Source: a virus
Virus record (IMG/VR): IMGVR_UViG_3300042475_004209
Span: 1-25,302 of that record
DNA: 25,302 bases
Direction: 5' to 3' (one strand)
The notes under the pieces: model-generated
What the model was told of the DNA's origin: nothing
Database searches by the model: none
What the model saw: only the letters and a program-made list of their open reading frames with translations
Position numbers and translations under genes: made by a program
Shown: positions 9,562-21,712 of the stretch, one piece after another
Position numbering within the stretch: position 1 is the stretch's first letter
How the letters are laid out: each line of letters opens with the position of its first letter

Positions 9562-9799
9562 CCTCTCCCCCGCCGCGCAGGCAATCATGATCGCGGCCAC
9601 CAACGGCAATCACAACTGCCAGGCCGATCCGGTCTACCGGCAGTGCATTGCCGCCGCCCTCCGCGTTGTTGCGGATGAGGTGGCATCGGAAAAAGAGCCG
9701 TTATTTCTTGCTCTTGCTGATCGCATGAGGCGGGATGCACGCAATCAGTTTTGCGCAAAGCTCCGCGCCATCGCCGCCGAGCTGGAGGGCCAGCAATGA
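9554..9799 (+). CDS. Small helical protein, 81 aa, unknown function
   Basis: ATG at 9554 (MADLSPAAQAIMIAATNGNH), 8 nt inside the upstream gene. The protein is almost all helix: AAALRVVADEVASEKEPLFL, then RRDARNQFCAKLRAIAAELE. An upstream extension in this frame is shadow. ATGA overlap with the next gene. The 'aalR..ad.......LRaIAaELE' pattern is common in small phage proteins of unknown role. Confidence 0.65.
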   Translation: MADLSPAAQAIMIAATNGNHNCQADPVYRQCIAAALRVVADEVASEKEPLFLALADRMRRDARNQFCAKLRAIAAELEGQQ

Positions 9800-10077
9800 G
9801 CATTGAGCCCATCACCCAACGCGGCATCGCCTGCCCCGTGTGCGGATCGGATCAGAGCAAAGTCAACGAGACTCGGCATCTTGCAAGCCACAACTACATC
9901 CGCCGCCGCAAAATCTGCCGTAGCTGCCGTGCTAGGTACACCACCTACGAAACACTGACGCCCCCGTCCGTCATCAACCAGATGGCCGACCATGCGGCCT
10001 CTCATCTAACTGGTCGTGCTGAACTCGATCCGTTCCTGCAGGATCTGCAGGATCTGATTGACAAGCACAGGGCCTGA
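9796..10077 (+). CDS. NrdR-type zinc-ribbon protein, 93 aa, ATP-cone absent
   Basis: ATG at 9796. The N-terminal zinc ribbon CPVCGS (Cys13, Cys16), an ETR...IRRRKICRSCRARYTTYE stretch (Cys41, Cys44) follows the bacterial NrdR zinc-finger pattern closely. NrdR represses ribonucleotide reductase genes and needs an ATP-cone domain after the ribbon. Here only a short helical tail follows (ending LQDLQDLIDKHRA), so nucleotide sensing is unlikely. It is probably a stand-alone DNA/RNA-binding ribbon, a type also found in other phages. Last gene of the coupled early chain. Confidence 0.75.
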   Translation: MSIEPITQRGIACPVCGSDQSKVNETRHLASHNYIRRRKICRSCRARYTTYETLTPPSVINQMADHAASHLTGRAELDPFLQDLQDLIDKHRA

Positions 10078-10136: not shown

Positions 10137-10724
10137 ATGGCTCTCATCTCTGGAACCTCCCGCGCCGACATCCTGATCGGCAACACCAACGAAACCGACC
10201 AGATCTACGTCAACAACATCGGCGATCAGATCGTCAACAGTGAGGGCCGCGACGTGATCCAGTCATGGATCAACTTCGACATGGCCGCCAGCCAGGCCCA
10301 GTACCTCGTGCTCATGGGCCGCTCCGGTCTCACCGCCACCGGCACCGCCCGGGCGGAGGTGATCGGCGGCAACGCCGGCGACAACATCATCAACGGCGGC
10401 CAGGGCCAGGATCGGCTCACCGGTGGCCGCGGCGCTGACACCTTCGTGTTTGACGCCTACGGCCAGCTCAACGCCGACATCATCGAGGACTTCAGCCGGG
10501 CCCAGGGCGACACCATGGCCCTCTCCGGCGACGTGTTCGGCGTCGCGGCCGGGACTGCTGTGGGCTTCGCCGAGGGCGCTGCCCTGGGCGCTGGCCCGAC
10601 GGTGTTCCGCGACGCCACCAATCAGCTCTGGTTCGACGCCGACGGCATCGGCAACGGTGCTGCGGTGGTGTTCGCGCAGTCGCGGGCCCAGGGCCTCGAC
10701 AGCTCCTGCTTCGCGGTGATCTGA
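10137..10724 (+). CDS. RTX-type calcium-binding repeat protein, 195 aa
   Basis: ATG at 10137. Hemolysin-type nonapeptide repeats sit at about residues 71-105 (GGNAGDNIINGGQGQDRLTG, then GRGADTF), followed by the usual VFD and a DIIEDFSRAQGD segment. The N-terminal GTSRADILIGNTN is a degenerate repeat. Such proteins bind Ca2+ outside the cell and are exported by type I secretion through a C-terminal signal. Here the C-terminus (GLDSSCFAVI) does not show a clear one. No enzymatic domain is present. It is followed by a strong terminator and then the haloperoxidase. A structural or cell-surface role is possible; phage RTX-like proteins are otherwise tail or fibre associated. Confidence 0.85.
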   Translation: MALISGTSRADILIGNTNETDQIYVNNIGDQIVNSEGRDVIQSWINFDMAASQAQYLVLMGRSGLTATGTARAEVIGGNAGDNIINGGQGQDRLTGGRGADTFVFDAYGQLNADIIEDFSRAQGDTMALSGDVFGVAAGTAVGFAEGAALGAGPTVFRDATNQLWFDADGIGNGAAVVFAQSRAQGLDSSCFAVI

Positions 10725-10733
10725 TCGACCACG

Positions 10734-10759
10734 GGCCCCGGCACTGCGCTGGGGCCTTT
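10734..10759 (+). terminator. Rho-independent terminator after the RTX gene
   Basis: GGCCCCGGC (10734-10742), loop ACTGC, GCTGGGGCC (10748-10756): a 9-bp stem with one G-U pair, followed by TTT. It begins 9 nt after the RTX stop, so the haloperoxidase at 10778 should be transcribed mainly by another route or by read-through. Confidence 0.75.
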
Positions 10760-10777: not shown

Positions 10778-12004
10778 ATGAATCTCGTCTTCTCCAAGGG
10801 CTACGACGGCTACGGACTGCAGCAGCTGCTGGCGCTGCCGTTCGCCGACATGACCAAACGACTCGCGGCGTTCCACATCTGGGGACCACGCAAGATAGTC
10901 AACCCCCGCGCCGGCTTCCGACGGACCGACACCAGCCTCGATGCCACCGTGCCCGCACCGCCGGCCGATGACAGCCGTGAGACTGCCGGCGAGTTGCTCG
11001 AGGTCGCTGCGATGCAGTGGCTGATCGATCAGGACATTGACAGCCTCGACAGCCATCCCGATGCCAGACGGATCGCGGAGATCCTCGGTGCATTCCCTGG
11101 CATCCTGACCCGTCCGGGTGTTGGCGGCATGTTCCGCTATGGCCCCGGCGATCTGGGGCGGCGCACCAGCGCTCTGCTGTGGCAGTCGATCCCAACGGGA
11201 TGGAACCGCGCGTCGTTCGAGCCGCTCATCAGGAGTGGCCGCTATGGCGCCACACCGGCGGCCTATGAGGCTCTGCAGCTGGGGCAGGTGAGCGAGCGGC
11301 AGCAGTTCGAACAGCAGCGACGGTGGAGCGGTCGCGCCCTGGCCAGCCTGGTCCATCAAGACCAGCCTTACCTGATCCCGTTGTTCGTCGCCTGCCAGCT
11401 GCTGGGATCTGGAGCACGGCTGAGCTCGAGGTTCCCGGCCATGATCGCCGAGGCGCCATTCGTGACCGGCGGCGGCGTCCTGGCGCTGCAGTGCGCCCTG
11501 GCAACAGTCACCGAGCAGGCGATGCGGTCCTGCTGGGCGGTGAAGTTCCAGCGGGGGAGGGAGCGCCCTGAGCGGCTGTGGCGTGAAGGGGTCCAGGGCA
11601 ACCTGCACCGGGACTTCCTGGAGATCGGCGGCTGGCTGGTGCAGCAGACCGGCGGCTATCTGCCGATGACCTATGCCGAGGGCTCACCCTTGCATCCGGA
11701 CTATCCGAGCGGCCATGCGACGATCGCCGGCGCCTGCGCTGGGATCCTGCTGGCATGGTTCGCTGATGGTCCGCTGCCGTCGCTGGAGATCACGTCGGTG
11801 CATGACGAGATCCGGCAGATGATGTGGGCCCTGGCCGTCGGCCGCAGCTGGGCGGGGATCCATTCCCGGTCGAGCCTGCTCACAGGCCTGCAGCTGGGGA
11901 TGGCGCATTCGGTGTCATTCCTGCGCAACCTGAAGGCCAGGACGCCGGAGCCGCTGGGGGCTGCGTCGTTCGCGGCATTCGATGGGACGGTGCTGACCGT
12001 CTGA
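10778..12004 (+). CDS. Vanadium-dependent haloperoxidase (PAP2-fold), 408 aa
   Basis: The vanadate-binding motifs are all there: K-x6-RP as Lys256...Arg263-Pro264 (in KFQRGRERP), PSGH at 310-313, and R...GIH with Arg356 and His362 (GRSWAGIHSRSS). The SRSS/GLQLG after His362 continues the family pattern. The fold is the same as PAP2 phosphatases, but PAP2 proteins usually have a longer SRxxxxxHxxxD motif and often membrane helices, absent here. The family oxidises halides with H2O2 (chloro-, bromo- or iodo-peroxidase); halide preference cannot be read from this. It is shorter than eukaryotic forms (about 550-600). No signal peptide is obvious. The gene stands alone between a terminator and a convergent small gene with 3 nt between stops. 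Possible roles: oxidative defence, halogenation, or host surface modification. Confidence 0.85.
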   Translation: MNLVFSKGYDGYGLQQLLALPFADMTKRLAAFHIWGPRKIVNPRAGFRRTDTSLDATVPAPPADDSRETAGELLEVAAMQWLIDQDIDSLDSHPDARRIAEILGAFPGILTRPGVGGMFRYGPGDLGRRTSALLWQSIPTGWNRASFEPLIRSGRYGATPAAYEALQLGQVSERQQFEQQRRWSGRALASLVHQDQPYLIPLFVACQLLGSGARLSSRFPAMIAEAPFVTGGGVLALQCALATVTEQAMRSCWAVKFQRGRERPERLWREGVQGNLHRDFLEIGGWLVQQTGGYLPMTYAEGSPLHPDYPSGHATIAGACAGILLAWFADGPLPSLEITSVHDEIRQMMWALAVGRSWAGIHSRSSLLTGLQLGMAHSVSFLRNLKARTPEPLGAASFAAFDGTVLTV

Positions 12005-12007
12005 GGT

Positions 12008-12262
12008 TCAGCGATGCCGGAGGCCTTCGACATCAACCCGAAGGCCTTGGATCGCTTCGTCCTGCTGCTGATCCTTGGCGGTCTTCTGCTCCAGCTGCTG
12101 GCAGACGACCGTCAGGGTTTTCGCCATCTCTGCGAGGGTGATGGTCTGACGCCAGGTGAAGCCGACGAGGGTGGCGCCGATGGTGAGAGCAGTAGTGGCG
12201 ACCGCAACGAGGAGGCCAGGCAGAGCCTGTTGCAGCACCGAGTGGTGTGGAGAGGGCGCCAT
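12008..12262 (-). CDS. Small membrane protein with coiled coil, 84 aa
   Basis: Read leftward from the ATG at 12262. One hydrophobic segment at about residues 12-36 (PGLLVAVATTALTIGATLVG), then a basic/polar helical tail with LEQKTAKDQQQDEAIQGLRV heptad-like spacing. The single-TM plus coiled-coil layout fits a holin-accessory or membrane-tether protein, but no family is recognised. The TAGACT box ends 6 nt before the ATG, so a leaderless message is likely. It converges on the haloperoxidase gene with 3 nt between stop codons. An overlapping rightward ORF here is its shadow. Confidence 0.65.
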   Translation of the reverse strand: MAPSPHHSVLQQALPGLLVAVATTALTIGATLVGFTWRQTITLAEMAKTLTVVCQQLEQKTAKDQQQDEAIQGLRVDVEGLRHR

Positions 12263-12397: not shown

Positions 12398-12631
12398 ATG
12401 GCCCGAAACCCACAGCAACGCGTCACCGCCGACCCGATGGGCGCTGCCTACTGCCGACCCAGCATCTACGTCTGGACAGCCCCGACCCTGGAGCAGATCG
12501 CCGCCGAATGCCCTGGCCTGTCCCAGGAGATTGACGGCGAACGGCTCTACCTGATCCCCTACAACGGCTGCCAGCTGCCCATCACATTCGGGGCTCTGGA
12601 GCGGCTCTACGCCTACGCGGCCAACACCTGA
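12398..12631 (+). CDS. Small protein, 77 aa, unknown function
   Basis: ATG at 12398 (MARNPQQRVTADPMGAAYCR), 46 nt after the TAGGGT box. The sequence has several tyrosines, a central IAAECPGLSQEIDGERLYLI stretch, and ends LERLYAYAANT. No membrane segment, no zinc motif. No recognised family. It is followed by hairpin B. The leader carries a CAC-rich stretch (CACCACCACCACGTCACC) nearly shared with the leader of the next gene. Confidence 0.6.
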   Translation: MARNPQQRVTADPMGAAYCRPSIYVWTAPTLEQIAAECPGLSQEIDGERLYLIPYNGCQLPITFGALERLYAYAANT

Positions 12632-12644
12632 CCCCCCACGGCCC

Positions 12645-12688: not shown

Positions 12689-12880
12689 ATGACCACCACC
12701 CTCTGCATCCTCGCCACCCTCCTGGCGATCATCACCATCCCCCTGGTCCTGCTGCTCTACATCACCGAGACCCGGCAGCAGCGCATCAAGCGCTGGCGTG
12801 CCGCCGGCTGGACCCAGCAGCGCATCGCTGATCGGCTGGGCTGCAGCCGCACCACTGTCCGCCGGATGCTCGCGGCCTGA
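12689..12880 (+). CDS. Membrane-anchored helix-turn-helix protein, 63 aa
   Basis: ATG at 12689. Residues 3-26 form a hydrophobic transmembrane segment (CILATLLAIITIPLVLLLYI). After a short linker (TETRQQRIKRWR) comes a compact HTH (AAGWTQQRIADRLGCSRTTV, RRMLAA) of the resolvase/Hin or 'Trp-Thr-Gln-Gln' kind. It ends right after the recognition helix, with no wing or partner domain. Such proteins could tether DNA or a promoter to the membrane. The 'TM then HTH' order is short but not obviously truncated. Both neighbouring intergenic gaps carry small hairpins. Role unknown. Confidence 0.7.
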   Translation: MTTTLCILATLLAIITIPLVLLLYITETRQQRIKRWRAAGWTQQRIADRLGCSRTTVRRMLAA

Positions 12881-12918: not shown

Positions 12919-13776
12919 GTGCGCCACCACGTCGTCAGGGTTGGCCCGGCACTCCTCGATGTGCGCATTCCTTATAGCTCGAAGTCCGAGGAGTTCCACT
13001 GCCTCCTCGCTTCCGACATCCACCTCGACAACCCGAAGTGCAACCGGGCCCTCCTCGCCCGGCACCTGAACGAGTGCCGCGACCGGCAGGGTGCCGCCTT
13101 CATGTTCGGTGATGTCCTCTGCCTGATGCAGGGGAAGAACGACCGACGCGGATCGAAGAGCAGCATCCGACCGGAGCACCTCGGGTCCAACTACTTCGAC
13201 CTGGTGTTCGGCGAGGCCGCCGACTTCCTCCGGCCCTGGGTCGGCACCCTGGCGATGATCTCCGACGGCAACCACGAGACAGCGGTCGCCGGCCGGAACG
13301 AGGTTGACCCCCTTGACAACGTCATCCGTCGGATGGGCCCCGGCGCTCCGCACCACATGCCCTACCAGGGGTTCGTGCGGTTCAGCTTCTACCAGAAGAA
13401 CGAGCACGGCCCCGGCAAGTCCCGTTCGGTCCTGCTGTTCTTCCACCACGGTGCCTGGGGCGGCGTCGTGACGAAGGGTGTCATGGGCGGGGGGAGGTAT
13501 GCGGTCCTGGCCCCGCAGGCGGGGGTCTGGGTCAACGGGCATAACCACGAGCGCACGATCGCGGCGCACCCCTGCTACCGCGTCACCACCTCAGGCCAGC
13601 AGCAGATCGAGACCCGCTGGCACCTGCAGACCGGCACCTACAAGGAGGAGTTCGCCAGCGGCGGCGGCTGGGCGGTGGAGAAGATCGTCCTGCCGAAGTC
13701 CTTGGGCGGGATCTGGCTGACCCTTCGCCCGCGCCATTCCTCCGGCGTCGACATCATCCCCAGCCCAGCAGCCTGA
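12919..13776 (+). CDS. Calcineurin-like metallophosphoesterase, 285 aa
   Basis: The start used is GTG at 12919; no better ATG is near. All five family motifs are seen: DIH (Asp33, His35), GD (Gly64-Asp65), GNHE (117-120), HH (176-177) and GHNH (207-210). These bind two metals and cleave phosphoesters. Substrates in this fold range from nucleic acids (SbcD/Mre11) to nucleotides and phosphoproteins; this protein lacks any extra domain to narrow it down. It ends convergently with lysozyme: the two stop codons form a shared TGATCA. Codons end strongly in C, in line with the G+C-rich genome. The role in the phage is unknown. Confidence 0.88.
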   Translation: MRHHVVRVGPALLDVRIPYSSKSEEFHCLLASDIHLDNPKCNRALLARHLNECRDRQGAAFMFGDVLCLMQGKNDRRGSKSSIRPEHLGSNYFDLVFGEAADFLRPWVGTLAMISDGNHETAVAGRNEVDPLDNVIRRMGPGAPHHMPYQGFVRFSFYQKNEHGPGKSRSVLLFFHHGAWGGVVTKGVMGGGRYAVLAPQAGVWVNGHNHERTIAAHPCYRVTTSGQQQIETRWHLQTGTYKEEFASGGGWAVEKIVLPKSLGGIWLTLRPRHSSGVDIIPSPAA

Positions 13777-14223
13777 TCAGGCCGGCGGCCACAGCTCGCG
13801 CGGTGTCGCGCCGGTCGCCATCATCCTGGCCAGCCGCTCGGCGCGCTGCCCCACCTGCCGGGCCCACAGCGAGTCGAGCATCATCGTCGCCGCCTGCTGG
13901 TACTGGCCGGTCCGGATCGCCTCGAGGGTGCGCTTGAACTGCAGCAGCCCGGGCAGGCCCAGGTTGAAGGCCATGTCGAGCAGCACCCGCTGCCGCACGT
14001 CATCGAGGGCCGAGGCCCAGGGCAGCGCGCGGAACAGCTCGATCTCCAGCAGCCGGATGTCGCCGTCGAGCAGCATCGCCGACTCCTCGCGGGAGATGCC
14101 GCGATCGTCGAGGTTGCGGCCGACGCCGATCGTCAGCTTGCCGGCGGTGCAGCGGTACGGCTTCAGCCGTTCGCCCTCATGCAGCCGGATCTGGCGGATG
14201 AGGGCGGCGCGGTCGAAGGGCAC
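13777..14223 (-). CDS. Lysozyme/endolysin (glycoside hydrolase family 24, T4-type)
   Basis: 148 aa, GTG start at 14223. The catalytic region LHEGERLKPYRCTAGKLTIG has Glu16, Cys25 and Thr31: the E-8aa-C-5aa-T spacing of GH24 lysozymes, with Cys in place of the T4 Asp20. That Asp/Cys alternation is known in functional phage lysozymes. It cleaves the MurNAc-GlcNAc bond of peptidoglycan at lysis. No signal peptide or anchor is seen, so a holin is needed for access. The stop abuts the phosphoesterase stop. It is the last gene of the late block. Confidence 0.93.
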   Translation of the reverse strand: MPFDRAALIRQIRLHEGERLKPYRCTAGKLTIGVGRNLDDRGISREESAMLLDGDIRLLEIELFRALPWASALDDVRQRVLLDMAFNLGLPGLLQFKRTLEAIRTGQYQQAATMMLDSLWARQVGQRAERLARMMATGATPRELWPPA

Positions 14224-14380: not shown

Positions 14381-14923
14381 TCAGCAGTAGTGGAGGAAGG
14401 TGGTCAGGACGTACTTCGGGCCTGACCGTGGCGTCCTCCCAGCATGCAGCCAGGGCCACATCGGGGGGAACAGCAACAGGCTACCGGCACTCGGTCGAAG
14501 CGCCTGCCGCCACAGCGGGAAGTCGGTCTCGCCGCCGTCGCGGACGTCGTTGAGCCAGATCAGGATCGACAGGAACCGCCGGGCGGTGCCGTGGTCGACC
14601 ACGTCAACATGCTCAGGGCATTCATCGACGTGCGGGTTGTAGCGGCTGATCCAGATGTTCTCCAGCGTCAGGTCGTCGGGCCACTGGTGTGGGCCGATGG
14701 CAAGGTCGGAGGAGTAGGCCTCGAACTGTGGGATCAGAGCATCGAGGATGTCGAGCTGCGCTTCGGGCCAGTCGTGGCTGAGGTTGAGCTTCGTCACCCG
14801 GCAGTCGTCATCATCGATCCGATGCTGCAGGTGGTTGCGATGCTCGAAGCCTTCGATCAGGCTGCGGCAGGTGGCGGGGCTGAGCACCGCAGGGTAGATG
14901 CGAACCAGGTCAGCCAATTCCAT
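14381..14923 (-). CDS. 2-oxoglutarate/Fe(II)-dependent oxygenase (prolyl 4-hydroxylase-like)
   Basis: 180 aa from the ATG at 14923, overlapping the L,D-transpeptidase-like stop by one base. A longer in-frame extension upstream is rejected as Pro/Arg-rich shadow. The iron motif H-x-D is His105-Val-Asp107 (CPEHVDVVDHG), with a distal His160 (PWLHAGRTP) and Lys170 as the 2-oxoglutarate contact (PKYVLTTF). GGETDFPL and the SAGSLLLFP strand complete the double-stranded beta-helix. Such enzymes hydroxylate proteins or other substrates and are common in cyanophages. The target is unknown; a lysis/tail neighbour suggests modification of a structural or envelope protein, which is inference. Confidence 0.88.
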   Translation of the reverse strand: MELADLVRIYPAVLSPATCRSLIEGFEHRNHLQHRIDDDDCRVTKLNLSHDWPEAQLDILDALIPQFEAYSSDLAIGPHQWPDDLTLENIWISRYNPHVDECPEHVDVVDHGTARRFLSILIWLNDVRDGGETDFPLWRQALRPSAGSLLLFPPMWPWLHAGRTPRSGPKYVLTTFLHYC

Positions 14924-15432
14924 CAGCCCTCCTGGTAGACGCTGACGAAGACAGCACCGCTGGCGGTGAGGGGCAGGATCCGGTCGCGCAGGTCGGCGTT
15001 GTGGAGACGGATGCAGCCGAGCGTCGGCACCAGGGGCTGGCGTGGTTCCCATGCCCCAGGCCAGCCGCAGGCGGATCCGCCGCCGTGGATCATGATGCCG
15101 GCCCGCCCGTGCCGCTGCTCCTGCCCCTCGAGCTCCACCAGGTCGAAGCTGTACCAGCCATAGGCCATGACGTTGCGGCTGTAGACCGGCACCGGGTCGA
15201 TCTCATAGTCGCGGTAGATCGCGCCGATCTTGTAGAGGCCCGGGGGCGTGTCGGTTCCGACGCCGGCCCAGTCGTAGTCAGACCCCTGCCCACGGGCCAG
15301 GCAGGGGATCTCCCACAGCAGCTGACCAGAGAAGCTGAAGGCCTTCGCCCGCTCGGTGATGTCGTTGACGATCAGGTGGCTGTCGCCAGGCCTGAAGCCG
15401 CAGTCCTGTGGCCGCTTCGTGGGACCGATCAT
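14923..15432 (-). CDS. L,D-transpeptidase-like (YkuD) protein, 169 aa
   Basis: ATG at 15432, ATGA overlap with the small membrane protein. The catalytic block is visible: IMIHGGG (His116) then VPTLGCIRLHNADL (Thr137-Leu-Gly-Cys140-Ile-Arg142), the YkuD H...[S/T]xGCxR motif with catalytic Cys140 and Arg142. The front half has a WAGVGTDTPPGLYKIG strand region usual for this fold. No signal peptide is visible, odd for an enzyme normally exported. L,D-transpeptidases make 3-3 peptidoglycan cross-links or attach proteins; in a phage the likely target is the host wall. Sits in the lysis/late block with lysozyme. Confidence 0.87.
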   Translation of the reverse strand: MIGPTKRPQDCGFRPGDSHLIVNDITERAKAFSFSGQLLWEIPCLARGQGSDYDWAGVGTDTPPGLYKIGAIYRDYEIDPVPVYSRNVMAYGWYSFDLVELEGQEQRHGRAGIMIHGGGSACGWPGAWEPRQPLVPTLGCIRLHNADLRDRILPLTASGAVFVSVYQEG

Positions 15433-19521: not shown

Positions 19522-19988
19522 CAGAAGCTCATCCCCATCCCCATCAGATTGGTCGTCAGCGTCCGCGGTGGGAACTGAGCACCGACCGGCGCCAGGCTTG
19601 AGCCTAGCTGCAGCGTGTACTGGAAGTCTGCCTCGGACGCAGTGGCGATCTCACCGAGGAATCTGGAGATCAGCTGCTGGCTCACGGGTGGAGTGACGAC
19701 ACCGGCGCTCTCGGCATCGAACTCATAGACCGACACCTCGAACAGCCGTGCCTGCTCCATCGCCAGCTGCACCGCCTGGACCACGACCGACGTTGCCGGC
19801 ATTGTGATCGTGATTCCGCCTTCATCACCGGTGGCGCCGGACGCAACACCAGATGAGGTGAACGGAACGTAGACCCACTGCGCGCTGCTCCACGTGATGA
19901 TCTTGTTGCTGTAGAAGTTCTGCCAGCGCTGATACGTTGTGCCTGCAGAATCGTAGATCCTGAGATAACCTGCCTGCGCGCGATTCAT
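19521..19988 (-). CDS. Minor tail protein, 155 aa (DUF1833-like)
   Basis: ATG at 19988, overlapping the tape measure stop. It reads MNRAQAGYLRIYDSAGTTYQ and later TMPATSVVVQAVQLAMEQAR, then LFEVSVYEFDAESAGVVTPP and VSQQLISRFLGEI. The pattern and position, between tape measure and hub, fit the DUF1833-like minor tail proteins seen in siphophages, comparable to lambda M/L. The stop abuts the hub start. The family name is from memory and tentative. Confidence 0.7.
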   Translation of the reverse strand: MNRAQAGYLRIYDSAGTTYQRWQNFYSNKIITWSSAQWVYVPFTSSGVASGATGDEGGITITMPATSVVVQAVQLAMEQARLFEVSVYEFDAESAGVVTPPVSQQLISRFLGEIATASEADFQYTLQLGSSLAPVGAQFPPRTLTTNLMGMGMSF

Positions 19989-21712
19989 TATGCGATCCCC
20001 ATCGAGCGTCGACCGTAGAACGTGCGGATCCTCGCGAGCGTCGTGGTCTCGGTCTGCCGCATCGCCCGCTCGAGATCACCAAGCGTCACCCACTGCTGAC
20101 CCTGAGCCTGCATGACGGGCCCCGTGGAGACGTTGATGGTGGCCGGCCCGGCGTTCACCACACTGCCGCCACGGGTGCCGGCGAGGTAGCGGGCGGAGGC
20201 CGCCGCCATCTTGGATTCGGGGATGATGTACTCTCGCTCGCCACCTTCGCCGACCATGGCCAGGGTTGGGCGATCGACAACGCCACCTTCGGCGAATCGC
20301 GGCACCGACACCGCCGGCACCAGGGGGAGGTCCGGGGTGGGCAGAGAGTTGTAGGCGCGGATCAGGGTATTGATCGCACCGACCGCGGCGTTGATGCCAC
20401 TGGCGATGGCGTTGAGGATGCCGTTGAAGACCTCACGGACGAAGCTGCCGATCGCCTGCAGCGGTGCCCGGACAGCGCCGACCATCCAGCTGAACAGGTC
20501 GCTGATCGGCTGTCGCAGGGTCAGGTTAAACAGCGTCACCCAGGGCTGGACGAACACCTTGTAGGCGATGTCGATAGCGACCTTGAGGCCAGTCTGCAAG
20601 TTCTGTCCCAGCCAGGCGAGGAACTCACCGATGGGCTTGCGGAAGGCGATCACCATGGCGGTGACGGCAGCGATGGCGAGGATGGTCCAGCCGACGGGGC
20701 CGGTGAAGACGGCGATCATGCCGGGGAGGAAGGTGCTGGTCATGAATGCCAGCAGACCCACCAGGGCGCTGGTGATGGAGGCGACTGCCGGGATGGCAGC
20801 ACCGAGCCAGCCGGCGATGGTGGCCGCCACAGGCAGGGCAGTCAGAGCGGTGATGATCGTCACGACGGCAGCCATTGCCGGGGCCAGTGCCAGCATGGCG
20901 ATCGAGAGGATGGCGATGGCGCCAATGATGCCCTGAATAGGACCGGGCAATTTGATAAACAGATCAAGCACTACCGTCATCGTATTTGTGACTGCCTCCA
21001 TTGCTGGCATGAGCACTTGTGCGACCATGCCACCAATAGCACCGATCTTGCCCTGCATCTTGACCATGCTGTCTGATGTTCTGTCCGCTTGCTCTGCGAA
21101 CTTTGTGCTCATCCCTGTGAACTTCTCAATCTCTTGCCGGCCCATGTTCAGCAACGGCACCATGTCGGCACCAGCCTTGCCAAATAGTTCCATTGCGAGA
21201 GCTGTCTTTTGCGCCCCGTCTGGCATCTTTGCGAACCTGTCTGCGATGTCGAGAATGATCTGATCGGTTGCCCTTAGATTCCCGCTTGCATCTTTCGATG
21301 CGACACCAAGCTCTTTCAGTGCACCATCTGCCTTGCCATCAACCAAAGCTCGGCTGAACTTCACGATCGACTTGCTGATCTGATCGATATCGACACCAGT
21401 GAGTCTGCCTGCCTTAGACAATCGACTGAGCTGCTCGACCGCGACACCGGTCTTCTGCGACATGTCGAACAGCTTGTCACCAGTATCGATCGACTTCTGT
21501 GCCAAAGCCACAAGGCCAGCACCGGAGGCCAAGGGCACCAGGCCTTGCAGTCCACCAACCACATTGCCAGCCGCTCCGGCCAGGCGCGACAGACCACCTC
21601 CTACCTGGTTCGCTGTCGAGTTGAGCTTGCCCAGCCTGGCGCCGAGCTGCTGGATCGCCTCGCCGCCAGTCACCGCAGCCTTGATCCTGAGCAGTGCATC
21701 CATGACGGCCAT
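19988..21712 (-). CDS. Tail tape measure protein, 574 aa
   Basis: ATG at 21712 behind a strong Shine-Dalgarno (AGGAGG, 7-nt spacer). The N-terminus is helical (LLRIKAAVTGGEAIQQLGAR, NVVGGLQGLVPLASGAGLVA), with TGVAVEQLSRLSKAGRLTGV and KAGADMVPLLNMGRQEIEKF typical of TP901-type tape measures. Hydrophobic segments at about residues 258-358 (GPIQGIIGAIAILSIAMLAL and more) match the usual membrane-inserting part. By the known 0.15 nm per residue rule, 574 residues predict a tail of about 86 nm, if unprocessed. Residues about 84-260 are coded by A+T-richer DNA, hinting at mosaic exchange. Confidence 0.92.
   Translation of the reverse strand: MAVMDALLRIKAAVTGGEAIQQLGARLGKLNSTANQVGGGLSRLAGAAGNVVGGLQGLVPLASGAGLVALAQKSIDTGDKLFDMSQKTGVAVEQLSRLSKAGRLTGVDIDQISKSIVKFSRALVDGKADGALKELGVASKDASGNLRATDQIILDIADRFAKMPDGAQKTALAMELFGKAGADMVPLLNMGRQEIEKFTGMSTKFAEQADRTSDSMVKMQGKIGAIGGMVAQVLMPAMEAVTNTMTVVLDLFIKLPGPIQGIIGAIAILSIAMLALAPAMAAVVTIITALTALPVAATIAGWLGAAIPAVASITSALVGLLAFMTSTFLPGMIAVFTGPVGWTILAIAAVTAMVIAFRKPIGEFLAWLGQNLQTGLKVAIDIAYKVFVQPWVTLFNLTLRQPISDLFSWMVGAVRAPLQAIGSFVREVFNGILNAIASGINAAVGAINTLIRAYNSLPTPDLPLVPAVSVPRFAEGGVVDRPTLAMVGEGGEREYIIPESKMAAASARYLAGTRGGSVVNAGPATINVSTGPVMQAQGQQWVTLGDLERAMRQTETTTLARIRTFYGRRSMGIA

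Follow-up and report, generated by a model that had tools for sequence, protein, structure and literature searches.

The stretch of viral DNA analysed here (the window: IMG/VR record IMGVR_UViG_3300042475_004209, 25,302 nucleotides) contains a gene with the motifs and the predicted fold of a vanadium-dependent haloperoxidase (vHPO) of bromoperoxidase type. It is considered to have about an even chance of being true that the gene encodes a functional vHPO with the fold of the vanadium bromoperoxidases (VBPOs), belonging to a phage-specific lineage and moving as a cassette among S-LBS1-like cyanosiphoviruses, with removal or redirection of H2O2 as its likeliest benefit. The enzyme family is known, while its phage-only, signal-less, and compact branch seems to be new. 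The assignment is based on motifs, a sequence match in the PDB, an AlphaFold2 (AF2) model, the match of this model to VBPO folds, and the position in a phage clade.

10778..12004, plus strand: vHPO of bromoperoxidase type, ATG start, 408 aa, without signal peptide

The preliminary description of this DNA had claimed intact vanadate-binding motifs, and Lys256, Arg263, the PSGH motif at 310–313, Arg356, and His362 are indeed all in place, R263 being followed by P264. The family set of K, R, (S/A)-G-H, R, and the axial His is complete in the window protein (K256, R263, S311-G312-H313, R356, and H362). These residues are invariant in the 15 phage homologues and invariant or nearly so in 105 cellular homologues, except at the positions of P310 and S311, which vary, Ala being common at 311. 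The VBPO-type second active-site histidine ahead of the SGH motif, H306, is also present and is kept in 103 of the 105 cellular and in all 15 phage homologues. A weak point of the active-enzyme reading, as far as sequence can indicate, is S366, which replaces a near-invariant Asp four residues past the axial His (H+4); Asp stands there in 103/105 cellular homologues and in 13 of the 15 phage proteins, and Ser in the window and in the related contig L096. Asp at H+4 is a family trend in the homologues collected here, and we know of no published work that makes it a defining requirement.

Among solved structures the best sequence match was the VBPO of Acaryochloris marina (5lpc; phmmer E 5e-14), and VBPOs of red and brown algae came next. 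No family was found in NCBIfam or PHROGs, and the only Pfam match was PAP2 (E 5e-6), which at 26.8 bits lies just below the cut-off of 27.2. The AF2 model, built from 50 aligned homologues (mean pLDDT 86, pTM 0.90), has the whole-chain helical fold of VBPOs, beyond the PAP2 phosphatase core alone. Its first twelve matches in the PDB were all VBPOs from Ascophyllum, Corallina, and Acaryochloris, with E between 3e-16 and 2e-14 and a query-based TM of 0.70–0.82; 1qi9 stood at the top (E 3e-16). Vanadium iodo- and chloroperoxidases were matched only at E about 5e-4, and no PAP2 acid phosphatase did better than E 6e-3 (TM about 0.2–0.3). Clustering with phosphatases, named beforehand as the result that would speak against a haloperoxidase, was seen neither in sequence nor in fold. 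An acid-phosphatase-like or lipid-phosphatase-like PAP2 enzyme that uses the vanadate pocket for phosphate is thus decidedly unlikely: Pfam returned PAP2 and nothing else, and PAP2 phosphatases and vHPOs have pocket residues in common, but the VBPO fold and sequence match extend over the whole length, the phosphatase folds match weakly, and the VBPO-specific H306 is kept. A PAP2 phosphatase identity was rejected on fold and sequence, the PAP2 profile being matched only at the cut-off.

The window protein resembles the VBPOs of Ascophyllum nodosum (1qi9/5aa6), Corallina (1qhb/1up8/7qwi), and Acaryochloris marina (5lpc) in whole-length fold, in the pocket K/R/(S/A)GH/R/H, and in the extra histidine H306. 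It differs from them in its length (408 aa against about 550–670 aa), in its low identity (about 20% in structural alignment), in being phage-encoded, in having no export signal, and in carrying S366 for Asp. With the vanadium chloro- and iodoperoxidases (Curvularia 1vnc, Streptomyces 3w36, and Zobellia 4cit) it has the superfamily and the cofactor chemistry in common, but the fold match is much weaker (E no better than about 5e-4 and TM below 0.3). Among predicted viral structures, strong matches over the full length were limited to giant-virus proteins from Hokovirus, Yasminevirus, and Sylvanvirus (BFVD A0A1V0SGK0, A0A5K0U6L7, and A0A3G5AI90), and no phage protein was among the strong matches; the predicted folds agree over the length of the window vHPO (TM 0.82–0.84), but the identity is 20–23%, and these proteins belong to eukaryotic viruses and are annotated only as PAP2 superfamily or uncharacterised. 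VirX1, a flavin-dependent halogenase of cyanophages according to Gkotsi et al. 2019 as cited in PMC6864650, is likewise a cyanophage-encoded halogenating enzyme, but an unrelated flavin enzyme without vanadium chemistry.

Four scans of the IMG/VR viral collection gave 20 contigs with a vHPO, the window included. Group I (the window, L002, L003, L096, L009–L011, and L098/L099) is compact, with about 400–430 aa, and is spread over three cyanophage types, while the proteins of group II (L100–L108, L014, and the fragment L109) are longer, at about 515 aa. All 15 phage proteins stand on one side of a branch in a 106-row tree (SH-aLRT 99); the phage side received 86/99 in a 48-row tree and 96/99 in a 27-row tree, which was made without the cellular row L150, grouped as the 48-row tree did, and had enzymes of Verrucomicrobia and Lysobacterales as its nearest cellular rows. 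For these trees the cellular rows were chosen for their resemblance to the phage proteins, the root position is not independently fixed, and the window row has a long branch. The bacterial Tat-exported enzymes of Verrucomicrobia and Lysobacterales (L017, L018, L157, and L082) are the nearest cellular sisters of the phage clade, with 42–43% identity to group II, and differ from the phage vHPOs by a Tat-type signal, greater length, and location in cellular genomes.

Kinship with cyanobacterial haloperoxidases, which the preliminary description had expected, was not upheld. Cyanobacterial vHPOs, matched in 27 of 386 sampled genomes, are located elsewhere in the tree; the window vHPO lies outside any nesting in the host lineage (phage clade 96/99), and grouping of group I with the cyanobacterial enzymes was rejected by the AU test (p 0.002). 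A cyanobacterial host origin was rejected by tree and AU test. It is accordingly very unlikely that the gene is a recent pick-up from a cyanobacterial host, perhaps decaying or neutral. Such an event would be compatible with the occurrence of vHPOs in cyanobacteria, with the S366 substitution, and with the very long branch of the window vHPO (1.7–1.9 substitutions per site), which could also mean drift in specificity, but it disagrees with the phage-only clade and the AU result, with an open frame having all catalytic residues, with conservation in three phage types, and with purifying selection in relatives. The latter is indicated by dN/dS of 0.11–0.29 among close homologue pairs of other phages, pairs with the window being identical or near saturation; the window/L096 pair (dN/dS 0.73, dS near 1) is too diverged for use. 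The dN/dS values of the close pairs, the sequence match to 5lpc, and the fold match to 1qi9 speak against a chance resemblance.

Phage carriage had been described beforehand as unusual, and no vHPO relative was found in 50,697 GenBank phage genomes with either the group I or the group II query. Likewise no report of a phage vHPO was found in the literature, as covered by open-licence papers, and the phage-only branch is seemingly undescribed. A single-sequence scan of genome contigs with the window vHPO gave no match because its peptides are too diverged, while an alignment query of genome contigs returned at least 445 bacterial homologues. Because the phage-only branch occurs in several unrelated phage types, phages appear, by this distribution, to have kept and traded vanadium haloperoxidase chemistry for a long time. 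As a separate observation, three vHPO genes (L022, L031, and L037) lie in one MAG titled Klebsiella pneumoniae (isolate code TH-08apr19-175), a title which is probably wrong.

The carrying phage was placed by its tail tape-measure, tail, minor tail, tail terminator, and neighbouring genes, which match Synechococcus phage S-LBS1 and in several cases also S-CBS1 and S-CBS3. Because of these matches the window is, judged by gene content, part of an S-LBS1-like cyanosiphovirus, and its host type is probably cyanobacterial, as taken from the S-LBS1 and S-CBS relatives. S-LBS1 is the nearest isolate (tail genes about 34–74% identical, two-block layout in common) and comes from freshwater Lake Bourget (PMC6157547); it differs in having no vHPO, either annotated or by tblastn match, and its integrase is placed elsewhere, among structural genes (PMC6157547). 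In the window the rightward genes include a PD-(D/E)XK nuclease, a RecT-like annealing protein, SSB, and dCTP deaminase, and these replication genes meet the leftward lysozyme/tail block just past the vHPO region, which confirms the position between early and late blocks that had been noted previously. The flank and the leftward block include the following genes.

12919..13776, plus strand: metallophosphoesterase-like or DNA-repair-exonuclease-like protein on the right flank (phrog_7339, E 2e-11)
13777..14223, minus strand: phage lysozyme of the leftward lysis block (PF00959, E 3e-10)
19988..21712, minus strand: tail tape-measure protein, 47% identity over 100% to S-LBS1, which anchors the contig as an S-LBS1-like siphovirus

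Two further features were observed in this backbone: a 2OG-Fe(II) oxygenase and a YkuD L,D-transpeptidase-like gene between lysozyme and tail genes (14426–15432), an unusual pair in a lysis block, and a protein that matches the NrdR zinc-ribbon domain only, without the ATP-cone (9751–10077).

The vHPO gene itself lies in an exchangeable cargo slot, the elements and borders of which are as follows.

10137..10724, plus strand: RTX calcium-binding nonapeptide protein, left border of the slot (PF00353, E 2e-6), with homologues in L247, L165, and L248
10727..12633, no strand: exchangeable cargo slot, here with vHPO, the convergent membrane-protein gene, and a small ORF; homology to the sister phage L247 stops at 10726 and resumes at 12634
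10733..10757, plus strand: GC-rich hairpin between the RTX gene and vHPO, a weak terminator candidate (fold -21.5 kcal/mol, z -2.25)
12008..12262, minus strand: convergent small gene, 84 aa, with one hydrophobic (membrane) segment, behind which lies a polar tail that may form a coiled coil; the product could be a partner of vHPO or a lysis-type protein
12398..12631, plus strand: small ORF, 77 aa, without Pfam match, final element of the slot in the window allele
12689..12880, plus strand: small protein with hydrophobic N-terminus and helix-turn-helix (Pfam HTH_23), right border of the slot, with homologues in sister phages

Sister phages, surveyed as those having lysozyme or a tail gene in common with the window, were searched for vHPO by tblastn, and none was found in L247, L242, L165, L166, and L243. 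L247 (IMGVR_UViG_3300049595_004606) is 89% identical to the window up to 10726 and 94.5% identical from 12634 and has in place of vHPO a tyrosine integrase (PF00589, E 2e-20) and a 298-aa ORF; L242 (IMGVR_UViG_3300032225_002731) also has an integrase at the slot. An empty allele is seen in L165, L243, and L166/L248, where hardly any sequence separates the RTX homologue from the HTH gene behind it. Hence vHPO is present or absent between close relatives with conserved flanks, and the comparison of flank synteny proposed earlier has yielded named sister phages with near-identical flanks that differ in slot content. Since the integrases of L247 and L242 occupy the vHPO slot and that of S-LBS1 lies elsewhere, integrases may be gained repeatedly in S-LBS1-like phages, and the alternation of integrase and vHPO in one slot marks the site as a cargo hot-spot of these phages.

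In two other IMG/VR contigs, obtained from other samples, the vHPO is 99.9% identical to that of the window, and the backbones are 85–97% identical. Between L002 and the window one nucleotide mismatch was found in 1227 within vHPO and none in 255 within the convergent gene (100% identity), while nearly all other compared genes differ by 2–15%, one 31-nt stretch being also a full match. Because of this difference the vHPO cassette is interpreted as recently exchanged by recombination. That a host vHPO was joined to a phage contig by chimeric assembly is exceedingly unlikely: the mosaic identity profile is the one observation that would fit it, but the two contigs from other samples span both junctions with vHPO, and homologous genes stand at the matching place in L096 and L098. 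Misassembly was ruled out, three independent contigs spanning both junctions, and together with the integrase-bearing and empty alleles this bears out the earlier claim that the gene is phage cargo.

The RTX gene was rejected as an obligate partner of vHPO, since it also occurs where vHPO is absent; its product is fast-evolving between sister phages (39–86% identity). The preliminary description had also proposed that a terminator isolates vHPO, which held only in part. A strong hairpin does stand in the 53 nt between the end of the RTX gene and vHPO, but just three U follow it, without a proper U-tract, and the consensus terminator scan called none there; read-through from the RTX gene into vHPO is therefore possible. 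No consensus promoter was found for vHPO.

The gene on the other side is convergent, as had been described, the two stops (its own at 12008 and that of vHPO) being 4 nt apart. Its homologue adjoins vHPO in 6/6 group I contigs tested, L096, L098, and L009/L010 among them, but was found in 0/4 vHPO-less sisters. Two of these carriers are other phage types than the window: L098 encodes an integrase and a tail protein of P2 type, and the terminase of L010 is nearest to those of cyanophages S-H1, KBS-S-2A, and MED4-117. Because the pair recurs in other phage types and the convergent gene is absent from the vHPO-less sisters, vHPO and the convergent gene are, by their distribution, a unit that travels together. 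The possibility that the convergent gene serves S-LBS1-like phages generally in lysis was rejected, because it is absent from the vHPO-less sisters and its weak Rz-spanin-like PHROG matches are at chance level.

Most known vanadium haloperoxidases come from algae, fungi, and bacteria, and export is common among them. A Tat-like RRxFL motif was found in 63 of the 105 cellular homologues and in none of the 15 phage proteins (an approximate, regular-expression count), and the 15 phage proteins have no strongly hydrophobic leader. Group II genes often stand within capsid, protease, connector, or tail blocks of unrelated phages: near the major capsid gene in L014, L107/L109, and L102, among head-tail adaptor and minor tail genes in L103, and near virion and transglycosylase genes in L104. 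As the genes so often occupy the virion block, this placement suggests late expression and perhaps packaging into the virion. In L105 and L106, AT-rich phage contigs, ClpX-like and IMP-dehydrogenase-like genes were seen by eye close to the group II vHPO. A virion component or co-packaged enzyme, for which group II is the best case, might act on peroxide or the host surface while the phage adsorbs, and both the gene placement and the missing signal peptides of phage vHPOs would agree with it; for the window it is nevertheless unlikely, since the group I gene lies outside the structural block, at the end of the replication block and on the other strand.

The preferred reading is that of a two-gene cassette, vHPO with the convergent one-membrane-segment protein, in an exchangeable slot that has the replication block on one side and the lysis/tail block on the other. 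From what is known of the family, the enzyme would bind vanadate and turn over, with H2O2-dependent oxidation of iodide or bromide. Vanadate would be held by K256, R263, S311, G312, and R356, with H313 as the acid-base residue and H362 bound to vanadate; H2O2 from the illuminated cyanobacterial cell would convert it to peroxovanadate, which would oxidise iodide or bromide to hypohalous acid. As it has no recognisable export signal, the enzyme would act either in the cytoplasm of the infected cell or once lysis has set it free. Any benefit to the phage is speculative; removal or redirection of H2O2 in the dying photosynthetic cell would be the likeliest, the reactive halogen being a by-product or a weapon. 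The gene may also be expressed and yet its product catalyse a different oxidation or a phosphate reaction. Bromide and iodide are generally scarce in fresh water, and this expected low halide is a weak point, the freshwater setting being taken from the lake origin of S-LBS1.

While H2O2 consumption in the infected or lysing cell is favoured, competition by hypohalite is ranked next and is put forward tentatively. Hypohalite formed in the infected cell or at lysis would inactivate superinfecting virions, co-infecting phages, or competing cells, and the enzyme would be shielded or anchored by the membrane protein. Location in a swappable cargo slot, as is usual for exclusion and moron genes, the recent exchange of the cassette between phages, and the membrane gene that travels along are in line with this role, but hypohalite would harm the producing phage too. 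In a wider form, which is also rather doubtful, tailed phages would maintain a signal-less vHPO lineage across unrelated types and put hypohalite chemistry to phage use. Cyanophages would carry it as a two-gene cassette, alternating with integrase in its slot, for superinfection exclusion or lysate sterilisation, and group II phages as an enzyme of the virion module.

The window vHPO represents a compact natural variant for enzymology, and it forms with its neighbour a defined gene pair for functional tests. For the family as a whole, a phage-only, apparently non-exported, and traded vHPO branch would add reactive-halogen or peroxide chemistry to the effects of phages on aquatic microbes.
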